Source of the DNA: Geomonas azotofigens
GTDB lineage: Bacteria; Desulfobacterota; Desulfuromonadia; Geobacterales; Geobacteraceae
Direction of reading: 5' to 3'
Length of the DNA: 64,000 bases
Assembly: GCF_018919395.1 (NCBI RefSeq)
Contig: NZ_JAHLME010000004.1
Coordinates: 62,001 to 126,000 of the forward strand
In this document: one piece after another, positions 50,787 to 58,137 of the stretch
Layout: every line of letters begins with the position of its first letter
Numbering within the stretch: position 1 is the stretch's first letter
Notes under the pieces: model-generated
Seen by the model: only the letters and a program-made list of their open reading frames with translations
Told to the model about the DNA's origin: nothing
Database searches by the model: none
Translations under genes and position numbers: made by a program

Positions 50787-52979
50787 TTGTCGCACGTACA
50801 GTCGGAGCTACCCTTGTCGATCGACGATCAGCCACTCTACAACAGCAAGATCATCAGTATCTTCGTGAGCCTCCTGCGCAAGAAGTATCCGCACGTCGAC
50901 GTGCCGGAACTGCTGCGCTACGCGGAGATAACCCCTTACGAGCTCAGCGACGAGGGGCACTGGCTGACCCAGCGCCAGGTGGACCGCTTCCATGCCCGTA
51001 TGACCCAGGTGGTTGGGAAGGACATCTCCAGGGAAGGGGGGCGCTACGCGGCCTCCGAGGCCGCCCACGGCATGATGATGAAGTACACGTTCGGGCTGAT
51101 CGGACCGGCCAACACGCTGCTCGCCATCGGCAAGTGTTCCGGCAACTTCAGCCGGTCCGGAACCTACTCGGCGACCAAGCTGGCCGACAACAAGGTGGAG
51201 ATTACCGTCGTGCCGCACGAGGGTGTTGAGGAACAGCCCTACCAGTGCGAGAACCGCATGGGCCTCTTCGAGGCGGTGGTAATGCTGTTCAACTACCAGT
51301 CCCCCGACATCGAACACAACGAGTGCATCTTCCAGGGGGGCGAGTGCTGCCGCTACATCGTCTCCTGGAAGAAGACGCTCTACGCCACGGTGCGCAGCGC
51401 GAGGAACCGGCTCATCCCCATCGCGCTCGTCGCCTACGCGCTGTCGCAGCATTTCTGGCAGGTGGGGCACCTCGTGGAAGTCCTCACCTCCCTCGCCTTT
51501 TTCGCCCTGGGGAGTTCCTACCTGGCACAGCGGCTGGAAACCCGGGAATTCGTCACCGCACTCGCCCAGGTGAAGGAGTCGACCGAGCAGGTGCTCGCGC
51601 AGATGGGGGTCAACTACAACAACGCGCGCATGGTCAACGAGGTCGGCCAGGCGCTCAGCAAGCAGGCGGGCATCAGCGACGTGCTGGGCAACGTGATCAA
51701 GGTGATCGAGAAGCGGCTCGGTTACGACCGTTGCGTCATCATGCTGGCCGACGCCAGGAAGTCGCGTCTCACCTTGAGCACCGGCTACGGGTATACCGAC
51801 GAGCAACGCGATGCGCTTCTCCAAACCTCCTTCGACCTGACCGCTCCCGACACCCAGGGCGTTTTCGTCACCTGCTTCCGTGACAACCAGAGCCGGTTCG
51901 TGAGCGACTTCGCCGATGTGGCCCACCTGCACACGCCGCGCAGCGTGGTGTTGTCGCAGGAACTGGAGGCGCGCTCCTTCATCTGTTGCCCCATCGCCTG
52001 CGATGGCGAGGTGCTGGGGATCCTGGCCGTCGACAACAAGAAAACGCAGCGCCCGCTGATGCAGAGCGACCTGAGTCTCCTGACCGGGATCGCACCGGTC
52101 ATCGGCATGAGCCTGCGTAACGCCATCCACCTCGAGCGGGAGCGGCGCATGTCCGAGCAGATCCGGCAGTCCCAGAAGATGGAATCCGTCGGCGTACTGG
52201 CGGGAGGCATCGCGCACGACTTCAACAACCTGCTGACCGGCATGATGGGGTTCGTCGCGCTGGCCCAGATGAAGCTGAAAAAAGACGACCCGGCCCAGGA
52301 GTACCTGGAACAGGTGCTGAACGCGGCGGAGCGGGCCGCTTCGCTCACCCAGGGCTTGCTCGCCTTCAGCAGGAAACAGGTCAACCATCCAGAGCCCGTC
52401 AACCTGAACCAGGTGGTCGACCACCTGCGCAAGCTCCTGAGCCGGCTCGTAACGGCGAAGATTACGCTGCACATCGAGCTGTGGCCGGAGAAGCTGGCGG
52501 TCGTGGCGGACTCCGGGCAGATCGACCAAGTCATCACGAACCTTGTCAACAACGCACGCGACGCCATGCCGGAAGGGGGGACCCTCACCATCTGCACCAG
52601 CTTGATGGAGATGAACGAGGAGTGGATCGACCAGCGCGGGTATGGGAGGCAGGGGAGCTACGCGGTGATCTCGGTGACCGATACCGGCACCGGCATCGAC
52701 GAGGCGACCAAGGCCCACGTGCTGGAACCGTTCTTCACCACCAAGGAGGTCGGCAAGGGGAGCGGGCTGGGGCTGGCCATCGTCTACGGCATCGTCAAGC
52801 AGCACGAAGGGTACGTGGAAATCGACAGCACCCCCGGCATCGGGACCACCCTCAACGTCTACCTCCCGCTCCTCACCGGCGCGGCCGCGGCGGGAGTTCC
52901 CGAACTGAGACACGCCGACACCGGGGCCCCGGCGGTCACCGTGTTCAGCCGTCCAGAAAGCCGACCCACTTCACCCTGA
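50787..52979 (+). CDS. GAF-domain sensor histidine kinase with novel-looking N-terminal sensor
   Basis: 730 residues from TTG 50787 (TAAGG upstream); TTG 50814 with GGAG 6 nt upstream is an equal alternative. Order: N-terminal domain (about 20-195) with a V4R-like Cys motif ECIFQGGECCRYIVSW, two hydrophobic segments (about 206-245), a coiled linker, GAF domain (about 290-450), HisKA with phospho-acceptor H477 in GGIAHDFNNLLTG, and HATPase with NLVNNARDAMPEGG, DTGTGID and GKGSGLGLAIVYG. No receiver domain is attached and no response regulator is adjacent. The N-terminal ligand is unknown. Its 3' end overlaps the convergent dnaE2 by 35 nt. Confidence 0.88.
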   Translation: MSHVQSELPLSIDDQPLYNSKIISIFVSLLRKKYPHVDVPELLRYAEITPYELSDEGHWLTQRQVDRFHARMTQVVGKDISREGGRYAASEAAHGMMMKYTFGLIGPANTLLAIGKCSGNFSRSGTYSATKLADNKVEITVVPHEGVEEQPYQCENRMGLFEAVVMLFNYQSPDIEHNECIFQGGECCRYIVSWKKTLYATVRSARNRLIPIALVAYALSQHFWQVGHLVEVLTSLAFFALGSSYLAQRLETREFVTALAQVKESTEQVLAQMGVNYNNARMVNEVGQALSKQAGISDVLGNVIKVIEKRLGYDRCVIMLADARKSRLTLSTGYGYTDEQRDALLQTSFDLTAPDTQGVFVTCFRDNQSRFVSDFADVAHLHTPRSVVLSQELEARSFICCPIACDGEVLGILAVDNKKTQRPLMQSDLSLLTGIAPVIGMSLRNAIHLERERRMSEQIRQSQKMESVGVLAGGIAHDFNNLLTGMMGFVALAQMKLKKDDPAQEYLEQVLNAAERAASLTQGLLAFSRKQVNHPEPVNLNQVVDHLRKLLSRLVTAKITLHIELWPEKLAVVADSGQIDQVITNLVNNARDAMPEGGTLTICTSLMEMNEEWIDQRGYGRQGSYAVISVTDTGTGIDEATKAHVLEPFFTTKEVGKGSGLGLAIVYGIVKQHEGYVEIDSTPGIGTTLNVYLPLLTGAAAAGVPELRHADTGAPAVTVFSRPESRPTSP

Positions 52980-55900
52980 GCGTCGCCACGCCGAACTCCT
53001 CCTCGACCACCCCCTTCAACAGGTAGGGGCGGCGCTGCGAGAGCTTACGGCAAAAGCGCGCGTAGACATCGGGGAAAAAGGTGGCGTCGAAGATCGCCGT
53101 CACGTCCTCGAAGGAGACGAATTCCATCGGGCGGCCGTGCTTGTCCTCCACCGTCTTGGTCGTGATCCACCATCCCACCATGGTCACCCACTGACCCGAA
53201 TGCGTGATCAACTCCGAAGCCTTGATGGGGCGGTGCCGCTGCCACTGGGCCTTGTACAGGGCGAGCGGGTGCCGGGAGGCGAGAAAACCCAGCGCCTCCA
53301 CCTCCTGCCGCAACACCGTTTCCGCGTCGTAGGGGGGCGGCGTGGGGAGCTCGGTGTTCTGCTCGAAGAGGAGCGCCGTCGCCTGCTGCTGGAAATGGAG
53401 CAGTTCCCACAAGAGCGCCGGCCGCCTCTGTTCCCCCTCCAGGACGTCGAAGCATCCCGCCTTCACGAGCCGCTCCGCATCCGCCCGCTGCACGTTAGCC
53501 CGGCGCAGGAAGTCCCGAAACGACGTGAACGCCCCGTGCTCGCGGCGCTCCTTGAGAAGGCGCTGCGCCCCCTCCCGGGTCAGCCCGTCGATCTGCATCA
53601 ATCCGATGCGCAGCGTTTTCTCGAAGCCGGTGTAGTGGTAGTCGCTCTCGTTGACGTCCGGCGGCAGGATGGCGAGCCCGAGCCTTCGCCCCTCCGAGAT
53701 GTAGGCGAAGGGGGAGTAGTAGCCACCCTGGTTGGAGATGACCGCGGCGATGAACTGGGCGGGGTGGTTCGCCTTCATGTAGGCGGCCTTGGCGCTCAAC
53801 AGTGCGTAACTCGCCGAATGCGGCTTGCAGAAGGAATAACCGGCGAACGATAGGATCTGGTCCCAGATCGCGTCCAGCACCGGACCGGTGACGCCGCGCT
53901 CCTTCCCTCCCGCCATGAACTTGGCGCGGAAGTCCTCCAGCCGCTTGCCCCGGTGCTTCTTGGTGATCACCTTCCTGAGCTGGTCCCCCTCGCTTGCCGA
54001 GAAGCCCGCGAGCTCCATGGCGATCTGGGTGATCTGCTCCTGGTAAATGGCGATCCCCAGCGTCTCCCCCAGGACCGGCTCCAGGAGCGGGTGCAGGTGC
54101 GCCCATTTCTTTCCCTGCATGCGGGCGATGTATTCCTGGATGAAGCAGTTCGCGGCCGGCCGGATGATCGAGGAGGCCTGCACCAGCACCTCGAAGAGGT
54201 CGATGGCGAAGGTCTCCGCCGGCGCGGTGGAACTCCAGATCTTTCGCAAGAGCAGGCGCACCGAGGGGGATTCCAGGTAGAAGCAGCCGATGGTGAGGCC
54301 GCGGCGCATCAGGCTCTGCGTCCTGTCGTCCTCAAGCGGGCGCCAGCTCGCGTAGTCGATCTCTATCCCCTTTTGCTCCTGCACCGCCGCCATCGCGTCG
54401 CGGATGACGGCCAGCGAGCGGTTGCCCAGGATGTCGATCTTCACGAGCCCCGCGTCCTCGGCCTGGTCCTTTTCCCACTGGATCAGCGGCAGCCCCTTGT
54501 GCGAAATCTCCACCGGGACGTACCTGCGGATCTCGTCGGGGACGATGACGAGCCCCCCGCAATGCAGCGAAAGGTGGCGCAACTGGCCGTTCAGGCGGCG
54601 CGCCGTGGCAAGGATCTCCTGCCAGTCCGGCGAGAGCGTTTCCCCCTGGAACAGCGGGTGCGCCGCCATCGCCGCCGCGGTCTGCTCCGCCCGCCAGAAA
54701 CCCGAGATCCGCTCCGTCATCTCCTTGATCTCGAAGTCCGGCAGCCCGTACACCTTGGCCACCTCGCGCAGGGCCGATCTCCCCTTGAACCCAACCTGGT
54801 TCGCCACCATCGCGGCGCGTCTGGCGCCGTAGCGGGCGAAGGCGAAATCGAGGATGGCGTCCCGCTCGTCCCACGGGAAGTCCACGTCGATGTCGGGCGG
54901 GTCGCTGCGCCCCTCGTTTAGGAAGCGTTCGAAGAAGAGGTTGTGGCGGATGGGGTCGACGTGGGTGATGCCGAGGCAGTAGGCGACCAGGGACGCCGCC
55001 GCGCTCCCCCGGCCGCAGGTGCGTTGGGACTGCTTGGTGATTTCCTCCACCACCAGGAAGTAGTGGGCGAACCCCTTGTCGCGGATGATGGCCAGTTCCT
55101 TTTGCAGGCGCGCCTCCACGTTGGGGGCGATCGAGCCGTAGCGCCAGAGCGCACCTTCCCGGGCGCGGCGGTTGAGCGTCGTGAAGGCGTCGTCGTTGCC
55201 CAGTCCGCGGAAGGCGGGGAAGATGGTGCGGGAGAAATCCCACTCCCTGCGGCACATCTCAGCTATGCGCCGTGAGTTTGTCAGCGCCTCCGGGCAGTGC
55301 GGGAAGAACTCCGCCATCTGCGCCGCGTCGTAGAGCGCGTCCGATTCCGAAGCCGTCTGTTCCGGCGTCAGCCGTGACAGTTTCGTGTTGAGGTCGATGG
55401 CCCGCAGCACCCGGTGCAAGTGGAAGTCGCTGAGTAAAGGGGACTGGCTCCGCCAGGTGCCTGTCCCCTTTCCCTCTTGGGCTATGGCGTTGGCGTCGGC
55501 AGCATTGGAGTGAGGGGGACAGGCACCTGCGGAGCCAGTCCCCTTCGCAGCGCGCAGCAGTGCCCGTGCCGTCGCCACCGCCGGCAGCCTGAGTTCCCGC
55601 GATACCGCCAGTGCCCGGTGCATGTCGTGTCCCGGCGACAGCTCCACGAAGAGCCCCTCCGCGGAGGTCCTCTTGAGGTGCGAGAGCAGGCGCCGGTCGT
55701 CGCTCAAGACGATCACGCCGTGCCGGTAGCGGGAAAGCGCGTGGCAGAGGTCGAACGACTTGTCGCAGTGGAGGTCGGACAGAAGCCGCGAGATGTTGGC
55801 GTACCCTTCCTGGTCGGCAGCCAGGAGCACCGCGCGGTTTTGCTCCGTCACCGCCTCACAGCCGATGAGGGGCGAGATCCCCGCCTCGCGCGCCGCGTTG

Positions 55901-56049
55901 AGGAACCGCGGCACCCCGTAGAGCCCGTTGCGGTCGGTTATGGCGAGCGTGTCGAACCCCAGCCGCACCGCCTCCGCGCAAAGCGCCTCCGGCGGCAGCA
56001 CCCCCCAGTTGGGGGAGAGGGAAGAATGTACGTGGAGATGGACGAACAT
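52945..56049 (-). CDS. dnaE2: error-prone DNA polymerase III alpha subunit DnaE2 (ImuC)
   Basis: 1034-residue translesion C-family polymerase, from ATG 56049 (MFVHLHVHSSLSP). PHP domain (about 1-210), polymerase core with DPPDIDVDFPWDERD (about 383-397), fingers, tandem HhH region and an OB-fold near the C-terminus. Family members rely on ImuB to reach the clamp. Odd: residues about 169-205 are encoded by a palindromic DNA element that is in frame; the flanking VATARALL and DFHLHRVLRAIDLN look normal. It is the last gene of the lexA-imuB-dnaE2 set. DnaE1 is excluded by length and context. Confidence 0.95.
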   Translation of the reverse strand: MFVHLHVHSSLSPNWGVLPPEALCAEAVRLGFDTLAITDRNGLYGVPRFLNAAREAGISPLIGCEAVTEQNRAVLLAADQEGYANISRLLSDLHCDKSFDLCHALSRYRHGVIVLSDDRRLLSHLKRTSAEGLFVELSPGHDMHRALAVSRELRLPAVATARALLRAAKGTGSAGACPPHSNAADANAIAQEGKGTGTWRSQSPLLSDFHLHRVLRAIDLNTKLSRLTPEQTASESDALYDAAQMAEFFPHCPEALTNSRRIAEMCRREWDFSRTIFPAFRGLGNDDAFTTLNRRAREGALWRYGSIAPNVEARLQKELAIIRDKGFAHYFLVVEEITKQSQRTCGRGSAAASLVAYCLGITHVDPIRHNLFFERFLNEGRSDPPDIDVDFPWDERDAILDFAFARYGARRAAMVANQVGFKGRSALREVAKVYGLPDFEIKEMTERISGFWRAEQTAAAMAAHPLFQGETLSPDWQEILATARRLNGQLRHLSLHCGGLVIVPDEIRRYVPVEISHKGLPLIQWEKDQAEDAGLVKIDILGNRSLAVIRDAMAAVQEQKGIEIDYASWRPLEDDRTQSLMRRGLTIGCFYLESPSVRLLLRKIWSSTAPAETFAIDLFEVLVQASSIIRPAANCFIQEYIARMQGKKWAHLHPLLEPVLGETLGIAIYQEQITQIAMELAGFSASEGDQLRKVITKKHRGKRLEDFRAKFMAGGKERGVTGPVLDAIWDQILSFAGYSFCKPHSASYALLSAKAAYMKANHPAQFIAAVISNQGGYYSPFAYISEGRRLGLAILPPDVNESDYHYTGFEKTLRIGLMQIDGLTREGAQRLLKERREHGAFTSFRDFLRRANVQRADAERLVKAGCFDVLEGEQRRPALLWELLHFQQQATALLFEQNTELPTPPPYDAETVLRQEVEALGFLASRHPLALYKAQWQRHRPIKASELITHSGQWVTMVGWWITTKTVEDKHGRPMEFVSFEDVTAIFDATFFPDVYARFCRKLSQRRPYLLKGVVEEEFGVATLRVKWVGFLDG
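55437..55545. repeat. palindromic element inserted in frame in dnaE2
   Basis: The left arm (55437-55468) and right arm (55515-55545) are complementary over 31 bp, with a single extra C in the left arm. Arms read AAGGGGACTGGCTCCGC...GTGCCTGTCCCC; the middle of about 46 nt is unrelated. The reading frame stays open through the element. Confidence 0.95.
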
Positions 56050-56061
56050 CAGGAAACCTAA

Positions 56062-56215
56062 TTGACAGGGATAAAAGGGATACAAGGGATGAACACGGGC
56101 TCCGCCCCCGGAGGGGGAGGGCCAGGGAGGGGGAGGTTTAAGGACTAGGCCGTTAGGTGTTGACCAGACGTCTGGTTCTTGCCGTTATCCCTTTTATCCC
56201 CTTTATCCCTGTTAA
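56062..56215. repeat. inverted-repeat element between imuB and dnaE2
   Basis: Left arm 56062-56090 and right arm 56187-56215 match as complements at 26 of 29 positions; arms are built of AGGGATAAA units. Between them lie a GC-rich stretch and the perfect 14-bp palindrome ACCAGACGTCTGGT (56163-56176), a possible operator for dnaE2. Confidence 0.85.
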
Positions 56216-56219
56216 TGCC

Positions 56220-57470
56220 TTAGTTTTTAGTGACGGTCATGTACTTATTCTGCTCCGGATCCCATTTCGGCGGCGCCTCGCTGGCGAGGGTCACTTCCCG
56301 GCGCGCCGCCAGTCCCTTCCCCCAGCGCACCGCGTTCCGGCCATGCTTATCCCTGAGCTGATCCAGCGTCTCCTGCAGGTCGCTCTCCTTCCTGGACACC
56401 TGCGTCGGCTCGGCCGCGAAGAGATCCATCTGCCCCGCATCCTGTGCCACCTCGTCGCAGCTGAGCCGCAACCCCTTGACCCGCTGACGCCTCTTGCAGG
56501 TGGCGAAGAACAACTCCTCCACGGCCGCGAGCAGCGGCAGATCCAGTGAGACCGGCACCGGCAATACCTTCTTTCCCTGCTGACTGACCCCGTCCGCGTA
56601 CATCACCGAGAGCGTGATCTTGCGCGCCCCCTTGCGCAGACGCCGCAACCTCAGGCCGCATCCTTCCACCAGCCGCAGCAGCTCCGAAAGCAAGATGGCG
56701 TCGTCGTTCTCCTCCTGCTCCAAAAGCCCTTCCTCGACGATCTCCGTCGACATGCGCGGCGGCTGCACGGGAGAGCGGTCGATGCCGCAGGCCCGGTCGT
56801 GCAAGAGGGGCGCGAACGGCCCCACGGCCAGCCGCAGTTGCGGTACCGAGAGCGCCGCGACCTCTTGCACCAGTTTCAGGTTGAGATCGCGAAAGAGGAG
56901 CGTCTGCCGCGACTCCCCCACGCCGGGCAACACCGACACCGGGAACGGCGCCAGGAAAGGACGCTCGGCGCCGTGGAAGACGTCATATACTCCCGGCTCC
57001 CGCATGGTGTCCGCCGCGACCCGCGACACCAGCTTGTTGCCACCCGCGCCGGCCATGGCCTCCAGCCCCAACTCACCCGCTATCGACTTCTCCAGGCGCG
57101 CCGCCACGTCGCGCGCCGGGCCGAAGAGTCTTCTCGACGCGGTCACGTCCAGGAAAACGCGCCCCGCTCCTAGTTCCACGATCGGAGTAAACTCCGCCGA
57201 TAGCTCCATGAGGGCTTGACTCCCCTTGGCCATCAGGTGCGGATCCGGCGCGATGACGATGAGCGACGGACAGGACCTGCGCGCGTGATAGATCGGCGTC
57301 CCCACATGCACCCCTTCGGCGGCAGCTTCCGGCGAGACCGCTTGCAGCAGCGCGCGTTCCGAGTTGAGCGGCGCCACCGCGACCGGGCGCCCGCGCAGCT
57401 GCGAATGGATCACCCGTGCCAGCGCGATGGGAAAGGCGGGCACCGTTATGTGGAGGATTTCCCGGTCCAC
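56220..57470 (-). CDS. imuB: ImuB-like catalytically inactive Y-family polymerase
   Basis: 416-residue DinB-fold protein that connects DnaE2 to the sliding clamp. The palm acidic residues of active Y-family enzymes are missing: the usual IDMDAFF is ITVPAFP (residues 8-14), and the SxDE segment is replaced by ELGAGRVFLDVT (99-110). Little-finger domain about 235-330. A clamp-binding pentapeptide QMDLF is at 347-351. These features match ImuB rather than DNA polymerase IV. The start lies inside the 3' end of lexA (25-nt overlap), so the genes are coupled. Confidence 0.9.
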   Translation of the reverse strand: MDREILHITVPAFPIALARVIHSQLRGRPVAVAPLNSERALLQAVSPEAAAEGVHVGTPIYHARRSCPSLIVIAPDPHLMAKGSQALMELSAEFTPIVELGAGRVFLDVTASRRLFGPARDVAARLEKSIAGELGLEAMAGAGGNKLVSRVAADTMREPGVYDVFHGAERPFLAPFPVSVLPGVGESRQTLLFRDLNLKLVQEVAALSVPQLRLAVGPFAPLLHDRACGIDRSPVQPPRMSTEIVEEGLLEQEENDDAILLSELLRLVEGCGLRLRRLRKGARKITLSVMYADGVSQQGKKVLPVPVSLDLPLLAAVEELFFATCKRRQRVKGLRLSCDEVAQDAGQMDLFAAEPTQVSRKESDLQETLDQLRDKHGRNAVRWGKGLAARREVTLASEAPPKWDPEQNKYMTVTKN

Positions 57471-58099
57471 TTGCGATAAAACCTCATGGAGCCCACCAGC
57501 ACTCCCCTGATATGAAACTCATCCTCTTCGGTAACCGTGATAGGGCTCATGGCCGAGTTGGCCGGCAGCAGCTGGATCGTGTTCCCCTTGCGCAGGTACT
57601 TCTTGATGGTGATCGAGCCGTTCACCTCCGCGATCACCGTCTGGCCGTTCTCCGCGACCGCCTGCGGATGCACCGCCACGTAATCGCCGTCCATGATCCC
57701 CATCTCCACCATGGAATCCCCGCGCACCTCGTAGACCACGTTTCCCGGTCCCGCCATGGCCGAGGGAACCTCGATGGCGTCCGCCAGTTCGTAGGCGTGC
57801 ACCGGTTGCCCCGCCGCCACGATCCCGACCAGCGGCAGTTCCATCCGTTCCGACGGCGCAATGGCCGATCCGGCGATTTCCGCCGCCGGATGCGCCGGAG
57901 CCGACAGTTGCAATCCTCGTTTCGCGTTCGAGCGGCGCGCCAGGTGCCCGTGTCGCTCCAGCGAGCGGAGGTAATGCTGCACCGTTCCCAGCGACTCGAA
58001 GCCGCACCCCTGCGCGATTTCCAACTGCGAAGGCTGGTACCCGTGGCGACTCACGAAATCCAGAATGAAATCAAGCACCCTCTTCTGTTTAGGTGTCAT
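57446..58099 (-). CDS. lexA: LexA-type SOS repressor (second-type, cassette-linked)
   Basis: 217-residue autocleavable repressor. The second ATG (58099) is chosen because GGAGGT sits 4-5 nt upstream; ATG 58111 lacks a ribosome site. N-terminal winged helix (TPKQKRVLDFI...GTVQHYLRSLERHGHL), cleavage site A96-G97 in VAAGQP, catalytic S129 in GDSM and K166 in TIKKYL. RecA-stimulated self-cleavage should derepress imuB and dnaE2. The HTH segment differs from E. coli LexA, so the operator is expected to differ. Whether this is the only LexA in the genome cannot be seen. Confidence 0.93.
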   Translation of the reverse strand: MTPKQKRVLDFILDFVSRHGYQPSQLEIAQGCGFESLGTVQHYLRSLERHGHLARRSNAKRGLQLSAPAHPAAEIAGSAIAPSERMELPLVGIVAAGQPVHAYELADAIEVPSAMAGPGNVVYEVRGDSMVEMGIMDGDYVAVHPQAVAENGQTVIAEVNGSITIKKYLRKGNTIQLLPANSAMSPITVTEEDEFHIRGVLVGSMRFYRKWTGKSST

Positions 58100-58137
58100 C
58101 CCCACCTCCATCCCATTGCACTTATATCAACCTCTTT

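Follow-up and report, generated by a model that had tools for sequence, protein, structure and literature searches.

A palindrome pair of a dispersed REP family read in frame within a variable loop of DnaE2 in the Geomonas group

Palindromic repeats that lie within protein-coding genes are known from several bacteria. A literature search on same-site in-frame palindromes returned Di Nocera et al. 2013 (PMC3733652) as its top match; the relevant parts of that paper describe coding genes that contain REPs, dnaE2 being one of those named, propose that loops tolerate such repeats, and speculate on mutators. The same source describes TIRs with the sequence GGGGWSAS beside Y1 transposases, as well as one case of insertion at about the same site, in recB of two Xanthomonas species. 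In-frame REPs have further been described inside tnpA_REP genes (PMC6006769), and single-strand hairpin recognition and cleavage have been shown for other TnpA_REP proteins (PMC8266576). The RPEs of Rickettsia, elements of about 150 bp each carrying a conserved peptide, are found in many genes (PMC10969869). Palindromes go unmentioned in the passage of PMC3919608 on the DnaE families; further related papers are PMC8049555 and PMC3116915.

The locus described here lies within the dnaE2 gene of Geomonas azotofigens, in a window of 64,000 nucleotides, the term denoting the whole stretch of DNA that was analysed. Its palindromes, referred to below as family A, resemble the REP/REPIN and RAYT (REP-associated tyrosine transposase) systems in being short and imperfect with conserved mismatches, in occurring in many copies and in inverted pairs, and in bracketing a Y1 HUH transposase gene, but they differ in that no GT[AG]G foot stands at a fixed position and in that the spacer of the dispersed REPIN is not present in the dnaE2 pair. 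The end of the family A arm, GGGGACAG, fits GGGGWSAS and is present in the copies flanking the Y1 transposase gene, a likeness which, together with the dispersal of the repeat, extends to the TIRs of TIRYT genes, the TIR families of Di Nocera et al. 2013 being compared with family A by consensus motif alone. With the RPEs (PMC10969869), family A shares translation in frame inside protein genes; in contrast, it consists of approximately 30-nt units beside a RAYT and is found here in one clear gene, the two being compared by description only. The dnaE2 REPs noted in PMC3733652 share both the gene and the kind of insertion, whereas here a single loop is affected across a 15-genome clade by two families, with 21-91 residues at the site and with frozen arms, the place of insertion within the gene not entering into this comparison.

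In-frame REPs in dnaE2 were therefore already known in 2013, while the clade-wide use of one site by two families and the frozen arms appear to be new. No report of a single loop with two unrelated palindrome families across a clade was found in a search that excluded most subscription papers and the 2013 supplement, nor one of frozen REP arms inside a gene, again with most subscription papers outside the search. Literature linking "REP-associated tyrosine transposase" with Geobacter, or naming Geomonas in connection with REP or palindromic elements, was likewise not found, and four repeat 13-mers retrieved only papers unrelated by title (dog, kiwifruit, pig).

The palindrome pair and its host gene

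The features of the locus, in window coordinates, are the following.

52945..56049, minus strand: dnaE2, homologue of DNA polymerase III alpha of the second, error-prone type (domains, Foldseek, models)
55423..55560, minus strand: expanded linker from the VATARA segment to HLHRVLRAI, 138 nt or 46 codons, against 24 nt or 8 codons in eight relatives
55515..55543, minus strand: family A REP of 29 nt, coding strand GGGGACTGGCTCCGCAGGTGCCTGTCCCC, within the peptide KGTGSAGACPP
55469..55514, minus strand: 46-nt spacer separating the two REPs, DNA local to dnaE2 that differs from the spacer of the dispersed ~110-nt REPIN
55439..55468, minus strand: family A REP of 30 nt, coding strand GGGGACAGGCACCTGGCGGAGCCAGTCCCC, within the peptide KGTGTWRSQSP
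56220..57470, minus strand: imuB-like Y-family polymerase homologue, upstream of dnaE2 (context)
57446..58111, minus strand: lexA (context; TIGR00498, 164.5 bits, cut-off 110.95)

The dnaE2 frame occupies 52945-56085 on the minus strand, where the ORF tool places the start at TTG 56085 and the first likely ATG is at 56049. The protein has Pfam matches over cut-off to PHP, DNA_pol3_alpha, finger and HHH_6, its structure leads in Foldseek to bacterial Pol III alpha structures, and the superfamily model TIGR00594 is the sole model passed at its cut-off. The NCBI error-prone polymerase model PRK05672 is not passed (587.9 bits, below the cut-off of 939), and the Pol III alpha model PRK05673 gives a higher score of 622.3 bits, which is also below its own cut-off of 1002. 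The gene is called dnaE2 on account of its neighbours, its domains and the presence of a separate DnaE frame of 1162 residues in the same genome (G000:C11). The residues D386, D388 and D539, which we take to be the catalytic aspartates, are invariant across 42 DnaE2 sequences. The imuB-like gene matches DNA polymerase IV models, at best with 146.8 bits and always below their cut-offs, and owes its name to its place in the order lexA, imuB-like gene, dnaE2 of the 4.97 Mb host genome. The rest of dnaE2 is under purifying selection: over the 428 codons downstream of the insert, the median dN/dS is 0.107 in genes with the insert (105 pairs) and 0.149 in those without it (28 pairs). A pseudogene is ruled out by the frame, open in all 15 of the enlarged genes, by the dN/dS of 0.107 and by the invariant core residues.

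The sequence-only reading of this DNA had described two arms of 31-32 nt, complementary apart from one extra base. This is confirmed for 55437-55468 (32 nt) and 55515-55545 (31 nt), which pair as two inverted repeats of 17 nt (I1) and 15 nt (I2), each at 100%. The two REPs are thus inverted relative to each other around the 46-nt spacer, and the RNA of 55420-55560 folds with -97.2 kcal/mol (z -8.89), a value reached by none of 200 dinucleotide shuffles. An imperfect palindrome is also formed by each arm on its own, GGGGAC-T-GGC-T-CC..GG-T-GCC-T-GTCCCC, whose two mismatches read T:T on one strand and A:A on the complementary one; this inner palindrome was detected by the inverted-repeat search in the first arm (I3) and by reading the sequence in the second. 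A chance palindrome is ruled out by the inverted repeats, the z-score of the fold and the copies in the genome against none for the control. As also claimed, the ORF translation runs uninterrupted through the insert, the codons of the REP pair being residues 169-204 counted from ATG 56049. That the extra length is an insertion holds as well, and the earlier estimate of about 36 added residues was slightly low, the net gain over the 24-nt empty site being 38 codons (114 nt).

Whether the insert is a surface loop had been named as a point for structure prediction. The AlphaFold model of DnaE2 has a mean pLDDT of 88.4, and its only segment of at least 3 residues under 50 is 171-201, that is, the insert. 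In the model of the G. paludis protein, which has the longest insert and an overall mean pLDDT of 84.9, the low segment covers 171-250. The insert is probably a disordered loop.

Dispersal of the repeat and an associated transposase gene

If the repeat were a dispersed element, its arm was expected to recur elsewhere in the genome, and this is the case. Over the whole genome, exact matches number 51 for the half-site GGGGACTGGCTCC and 35 for the half-site GGGGACAGGCACC, the two of each in the window included, and the reversed-pattern controls have none. Full family A palindromes number 36 in the genome (control 0), and they are present in all 19 genomes of the genus with 2-250 copies each (reversed control 0). 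The exact half-sites fall at 54 places (56 rows, two of them duplicated), at two of which the full palindrome is missing. Family A is a short palindrome with many copies, apparently located mainly outside genes, the location being covered in part: 43 other ORFs of at least 200 residues span half-sites, and of the 20 scanned with Pfam four have a match, in three of which the REP lies outside the matched domain. Interruption of a conserved gene was demonstrated at a single one of the 54 places, that in dnaE2. In the fourth ORF with a Pfam match, which encodes a 2-oxoacid dehydrogenase E2 (acyltransferase; L177:1412-2746, C12:698894), a degenerate family A copy, read in frame, falls in the linker that joins the E3-binding domain to the catalytic one.

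Family A poses little obstacle to translation: of the 59 distinct copies in the loci analysed, 54 are open in all six frames, compared to 34% of the 30-mers of the window. A longer REPIN form, about 110 nt in length and with a conserved spacer of its own, is likewise dispersed. This form, with the inner sequence GCGGAATGGAGCGTTCGGCTA in L003 (L003:1500-1610), occurs throughout the REP-rich Geomonas genomes and is distinct from the dnaE2 pair. Since its spacer is absent from the dnaE2 pair, that pair would have arisen either from two insertions or from a rearranged unit. For the dnaE2 pair, a mobile spacer is ruled out by the 21-nt core of the spacer in the window, which at up to one mismatch is confined to dnaE2 in the 19 genomes; matches to the core at three mismatches mean little, as the reversed control also gives about ten.

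The host genome has four Y1_Tnp matches, one of which is a 197-aa ORF flanked by family A copies (L191:2320-2913, minus strand), with full REPs at 2211, 2288 and 2977 on both sides, so that REP copies bracket a Y1 HUH transposase gene at this locus. The ORF scores 82.6 bits against the NCBIfam model NF047646 for REP-associated tyrosine transposases (cut-off 80), matches the TnpA_REP structure 4er8 by sequence (E 2e-5), and contains the HFH motif and presumably the catalytic tyrosine. On the 5′ side of the gene (L191:2943-3005), a truncated GGGGACAGGCACC unit is accompanied by a shortened REP, and on the 3′ side there are two full REPs, the nearer of which adjoins the stop codon; all have one orientation. 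Relatives of this RAYT with at least 78% identity are present in three of the 19 genomes (the host genome, G021 and G023), and all three are bracketed by full family A copies, compared to one of 17 other loci from the same search that has a full copy, 1.3 kb away. Three further relatives with 52-58% identity have GGGGACWGG-type sequence near both ends, and full family A is absent from them. A close relative (at least 78%) is also absent from the REP-rich genomes G020 (182 copies) and G012 (143), for whose repeats kinship of the RAYT would offer no explanation.

By eye, the GT[AG]G foot of canonical REPs is at no fixed position in family A; GT[AG]G or C[TC]AC occurs within 12 nt on either side of seven of the 34 exact copies in the host genome, the two of the window not among them. 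Neither a target-site duplication nor a site of cleavage was established for the family. Judged by these features, family A, with GGGGACAG ends and without a fixed GTAG foot, behaves as a putative element of the REP/RAYT type and not clearly as an RPE.

One loop and two palindrome families across relatives

The insert was expected to be missing from relatives, and eight of the 23 genomes with a readable site indeed have exactly 24 nt there. The other 15 have 63 to 273 nt (21-91 residues), all multiples of 3 and stop-free in frame. The 23 genomes are those with a strong match among 48 searched; of the remainder, 23 have matches of E 1.1e-9 or weaker, which were taken as replicative DnaE, and two have no match. 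At the protein level, the stretch between T160 and R213 measures exactly 14 residues in 34 of 42 aligned DnaE2 sequences and 27-97 residues in the other eight. The aligned proteins range from Geomonas to Nitrospira, Acidobacteria and Neomarinimicrobiota, and the eight long ones belong to the Geomonas group (alignment A1 took in 41 of 80 loci, and A2 33). When the insert is left out of the dnaE2 tree, all 15 genes with an enlarged loop fall into one clade with a support of 100/99, which requires one change of state; in six of the 23 rows the sequence upstream of the insert is missing, and support is weak for some branches that lie outside this clade. On the explanation favoured below, and with the same high confidence as that explanation has as a whole, the loop had been enlarged before the 15 Geomonas-group genomes diverged from their common ancestor.

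What the enlarged loop contains differs among these genomes. Exact family A is present in seven of the 15 inserts (G000, the host genome, and G020, G023, G012, G021, G028 and G019). A second palindrome, family B, is found with at most one mismatch in eight (G011, G028, G013, G014, G015, G012, G021 and G025). Three inserts have both families and three have neither, namely G022, where B is degenerate, G016 and G017. Family B consists of CCCTCACCCCnnCCCTCTCCC followed by a GGGAGAGGG-like arm, encodes a peptide such as ALTPTLSQRERG, and differs from family A in sequence; it is dispersed in 18 of the 19 genomes (control 0), and its copies are open in five (15 of 16) or four frames. The insert of G021 has three family A copies. 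In G025 (L079), two family B copies, one of them degenerate, stand 60 nt apart, which could be either a local duplication or a double insertion. The fewest changes on the tree are three for family A and five for family B. The proposal that a dispersed mobile palindrome had inserted in frame in dnaE2 is upheld, with the amendment that more than one event is involved: two unrelated families have occupied the loop within the 15-genome clade, and the dnaE2 site is a recurrent landing pad.

The dnaE2 spacer in the window also partly matches the sequence flanking family B in sister genomes: for G012 and G015 its score exceeds that of every one of 500 shuffles, and P is about 0.2 for G022 and 0.9 for G025 (45 comparisons, P uncorrected). 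This suggests that the REPs may bracket the remnant of an older insert. One loop in one clade thus presents an empty site outside the clade, enlargement, two families, extra copies, decay and loss, with the frame kept in 15 of 15 genes, and since so many stages are seen together it is a good place for studying how new protein segments arise from mobile DNA.

Frozen arms and competing explanations

The arms in dnaE2 are frozen at the nucleotide level in the four species G000, G020, G012 and G021. Fourfold sites are invariant in the REP codons (0 of 16 variable), whereas in the dnaE2 codons on either side 127 of 286 are variable (binomial P 8.3e-5, the frozen-arm P values treating sites as independent and the flanks as neutral). 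Variable codons amount to 1 of 22 in the REPs, 10 of 14 in the spacer and 250 of 583 in the flank, and in the single variable REP codon the change affects a base that adjoins the palindrome without belonging to it. The invariance of the REP codons is matched by none of 384 same-shaped windows downstream (lowest 2), and among 127 such windows upstream the lowest number of variable codons is 6. A fifth REP pair, that of G023, carries a single substitution in one of its arms and is not part of the four-species count. The four species have in common the 29/30-nt asymmetry and a diverged spacer, in which nonsynonymous changes outnumber synonymous ones, and because both are shared, the REP pair appears to be inherited.

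An orthologous intergenic REP provides a control, which is a single locus, a second one not entering the count, with orthology taken from match positions and with G028 left out, its copy being identical to that of the host genome. In the four species 2 of its 30 positions are variable, compared to 0 of 59 in the dnaE2 arms (Fisher P 0.11), and its variation, too, is lower than that of the fourfold sites in dnaE2 (P 6.8e-6). Two (G011, G019 and G023), three (G016) or four (G015) differences are seen in other relatives, the REP-rich G023 (70 copies) having the same number as the REP-poor G011. As the intergenic REP is nearly as frozen, homogenisation or a family-wide constraint is likelier than a role specific to dnaE2. 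In addition, exact family A is present in dnaE2 in seven of nine genomes with at least 20 copies and in none of six with fewer (Fisher 0.007, kinship ignored), and this dependence on genomic copy number points to the family and not the gene, although the tie is loose, family A being absent from the dnaE2 of G013 (64 copies) and G014 (57), and the intergenic REP having changed to the same extent in G023 as in G011.

Taken together, the insert very likely consists of two family A REPs, members of a dispersed non-autonomous RAYT-associated family, lodged in a surface loop of the PHP region of DnaE2. The RAYT would move family A by single-stranded transposition, selection would remove out-of-frame insertions, and the loop would be reused because it is tolerated, in the sense that "insertion begets insertion", and not through target specificity. 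The frozen arms would then reflect either homogenisation by conversion or re-copying from genomic REPs, or a hairpin constraint on all copies, and a homogenisation or constraint acting across the whole family is the likeliest cause.

The arms could alternatively have been re-inserted or converted recently in each species, their identity then marking recent arrival instead of slow change. This would explain the freezing without selection, and family A is abundant in the same genomes; re-insertion, however, fits poorly with the shared asymmetry and diverged spacer and with a spacer core found only in dnaE2, which makes this reading rather unlikely. Conversion of the arms alone, within an inherited pair, may have occurred and forms part of the favoured explanation. 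It is improbable that the insert is adaptive, with a hairpin in mRNA or DNA or the extra peptide tuning the output or activity of DnaE2, whether as an attenuator of a mutagenic SOS polymerase or along the lines of the mutators considered by Di Nocera et al. 2013. The synonymous invariance of the arms in the four species would suit such a role, as would the strong fold of the genes with a REP pair (z -5.1 to -7.7 in five genomes) and the remark in PMC3733652 that many of the genes carrying REPs function in DNA synthesis and repair. The hairpin, on the other hand, is not kept across the clade, the other 10 of the 15 enlarged genes having a fold z between -1.6 and +0.9 (six genomes entered this comparison without the 30-nt upstream flank, the same six that are incomplete in the tree); the sister G011 has no family A at the site, the intergenic REP is nearly as frozen, and the presence of family A follows its genomic copy number.

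A lineage-specific protein insertion of the ordinary kind, retained for the residues it adds and palindromic only incidentally, would account for the frame being kept in every enlarged gene and is otherwise barely credible, as the same DNA recurs dozens of times elsewhere in the genome (control 0), the peptides vary widely among species, the spacer is free to change, mostly at nonsynonymous positions, and the loop has very low predicted confidence in AlphaFold. The differing peptides and the codon variation led us to reject it. A narrower idea, and a long shot, is that the dnaE2 hairpin is held at the nucleotide level because it acts in the SOS-induced transcript or in ssDNA at stalled forks and feeds back on the polymerase. 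If true, a domesticated transposase substrate would double as a regulator of mutagenesis, and the loop would be a refuge for such elements in a coding gene. Thanks to the frozen arms, one can test directly whether REPs are maintained through copying and conversion or because their hairpin is under selection, since the synonymous sites of the gene supply a clock that intergenic REPs lack.

A further repeat is found next to dnaE2. In the gap between dnaE2 and the imuB-like gene (56066-56211), inverted ends CAGGGATAAAAGGGATA / TATCCCCTTTATCCCTG flank a G/C-rich repeat, and these features mark a candidate third dispersed miniature element. Its end motif has 56 matches in the host genome at up to one mismatch (control 0) and is present in 17 of the 19 Geomonas genomes, the control giving one match each in G015 and G018.
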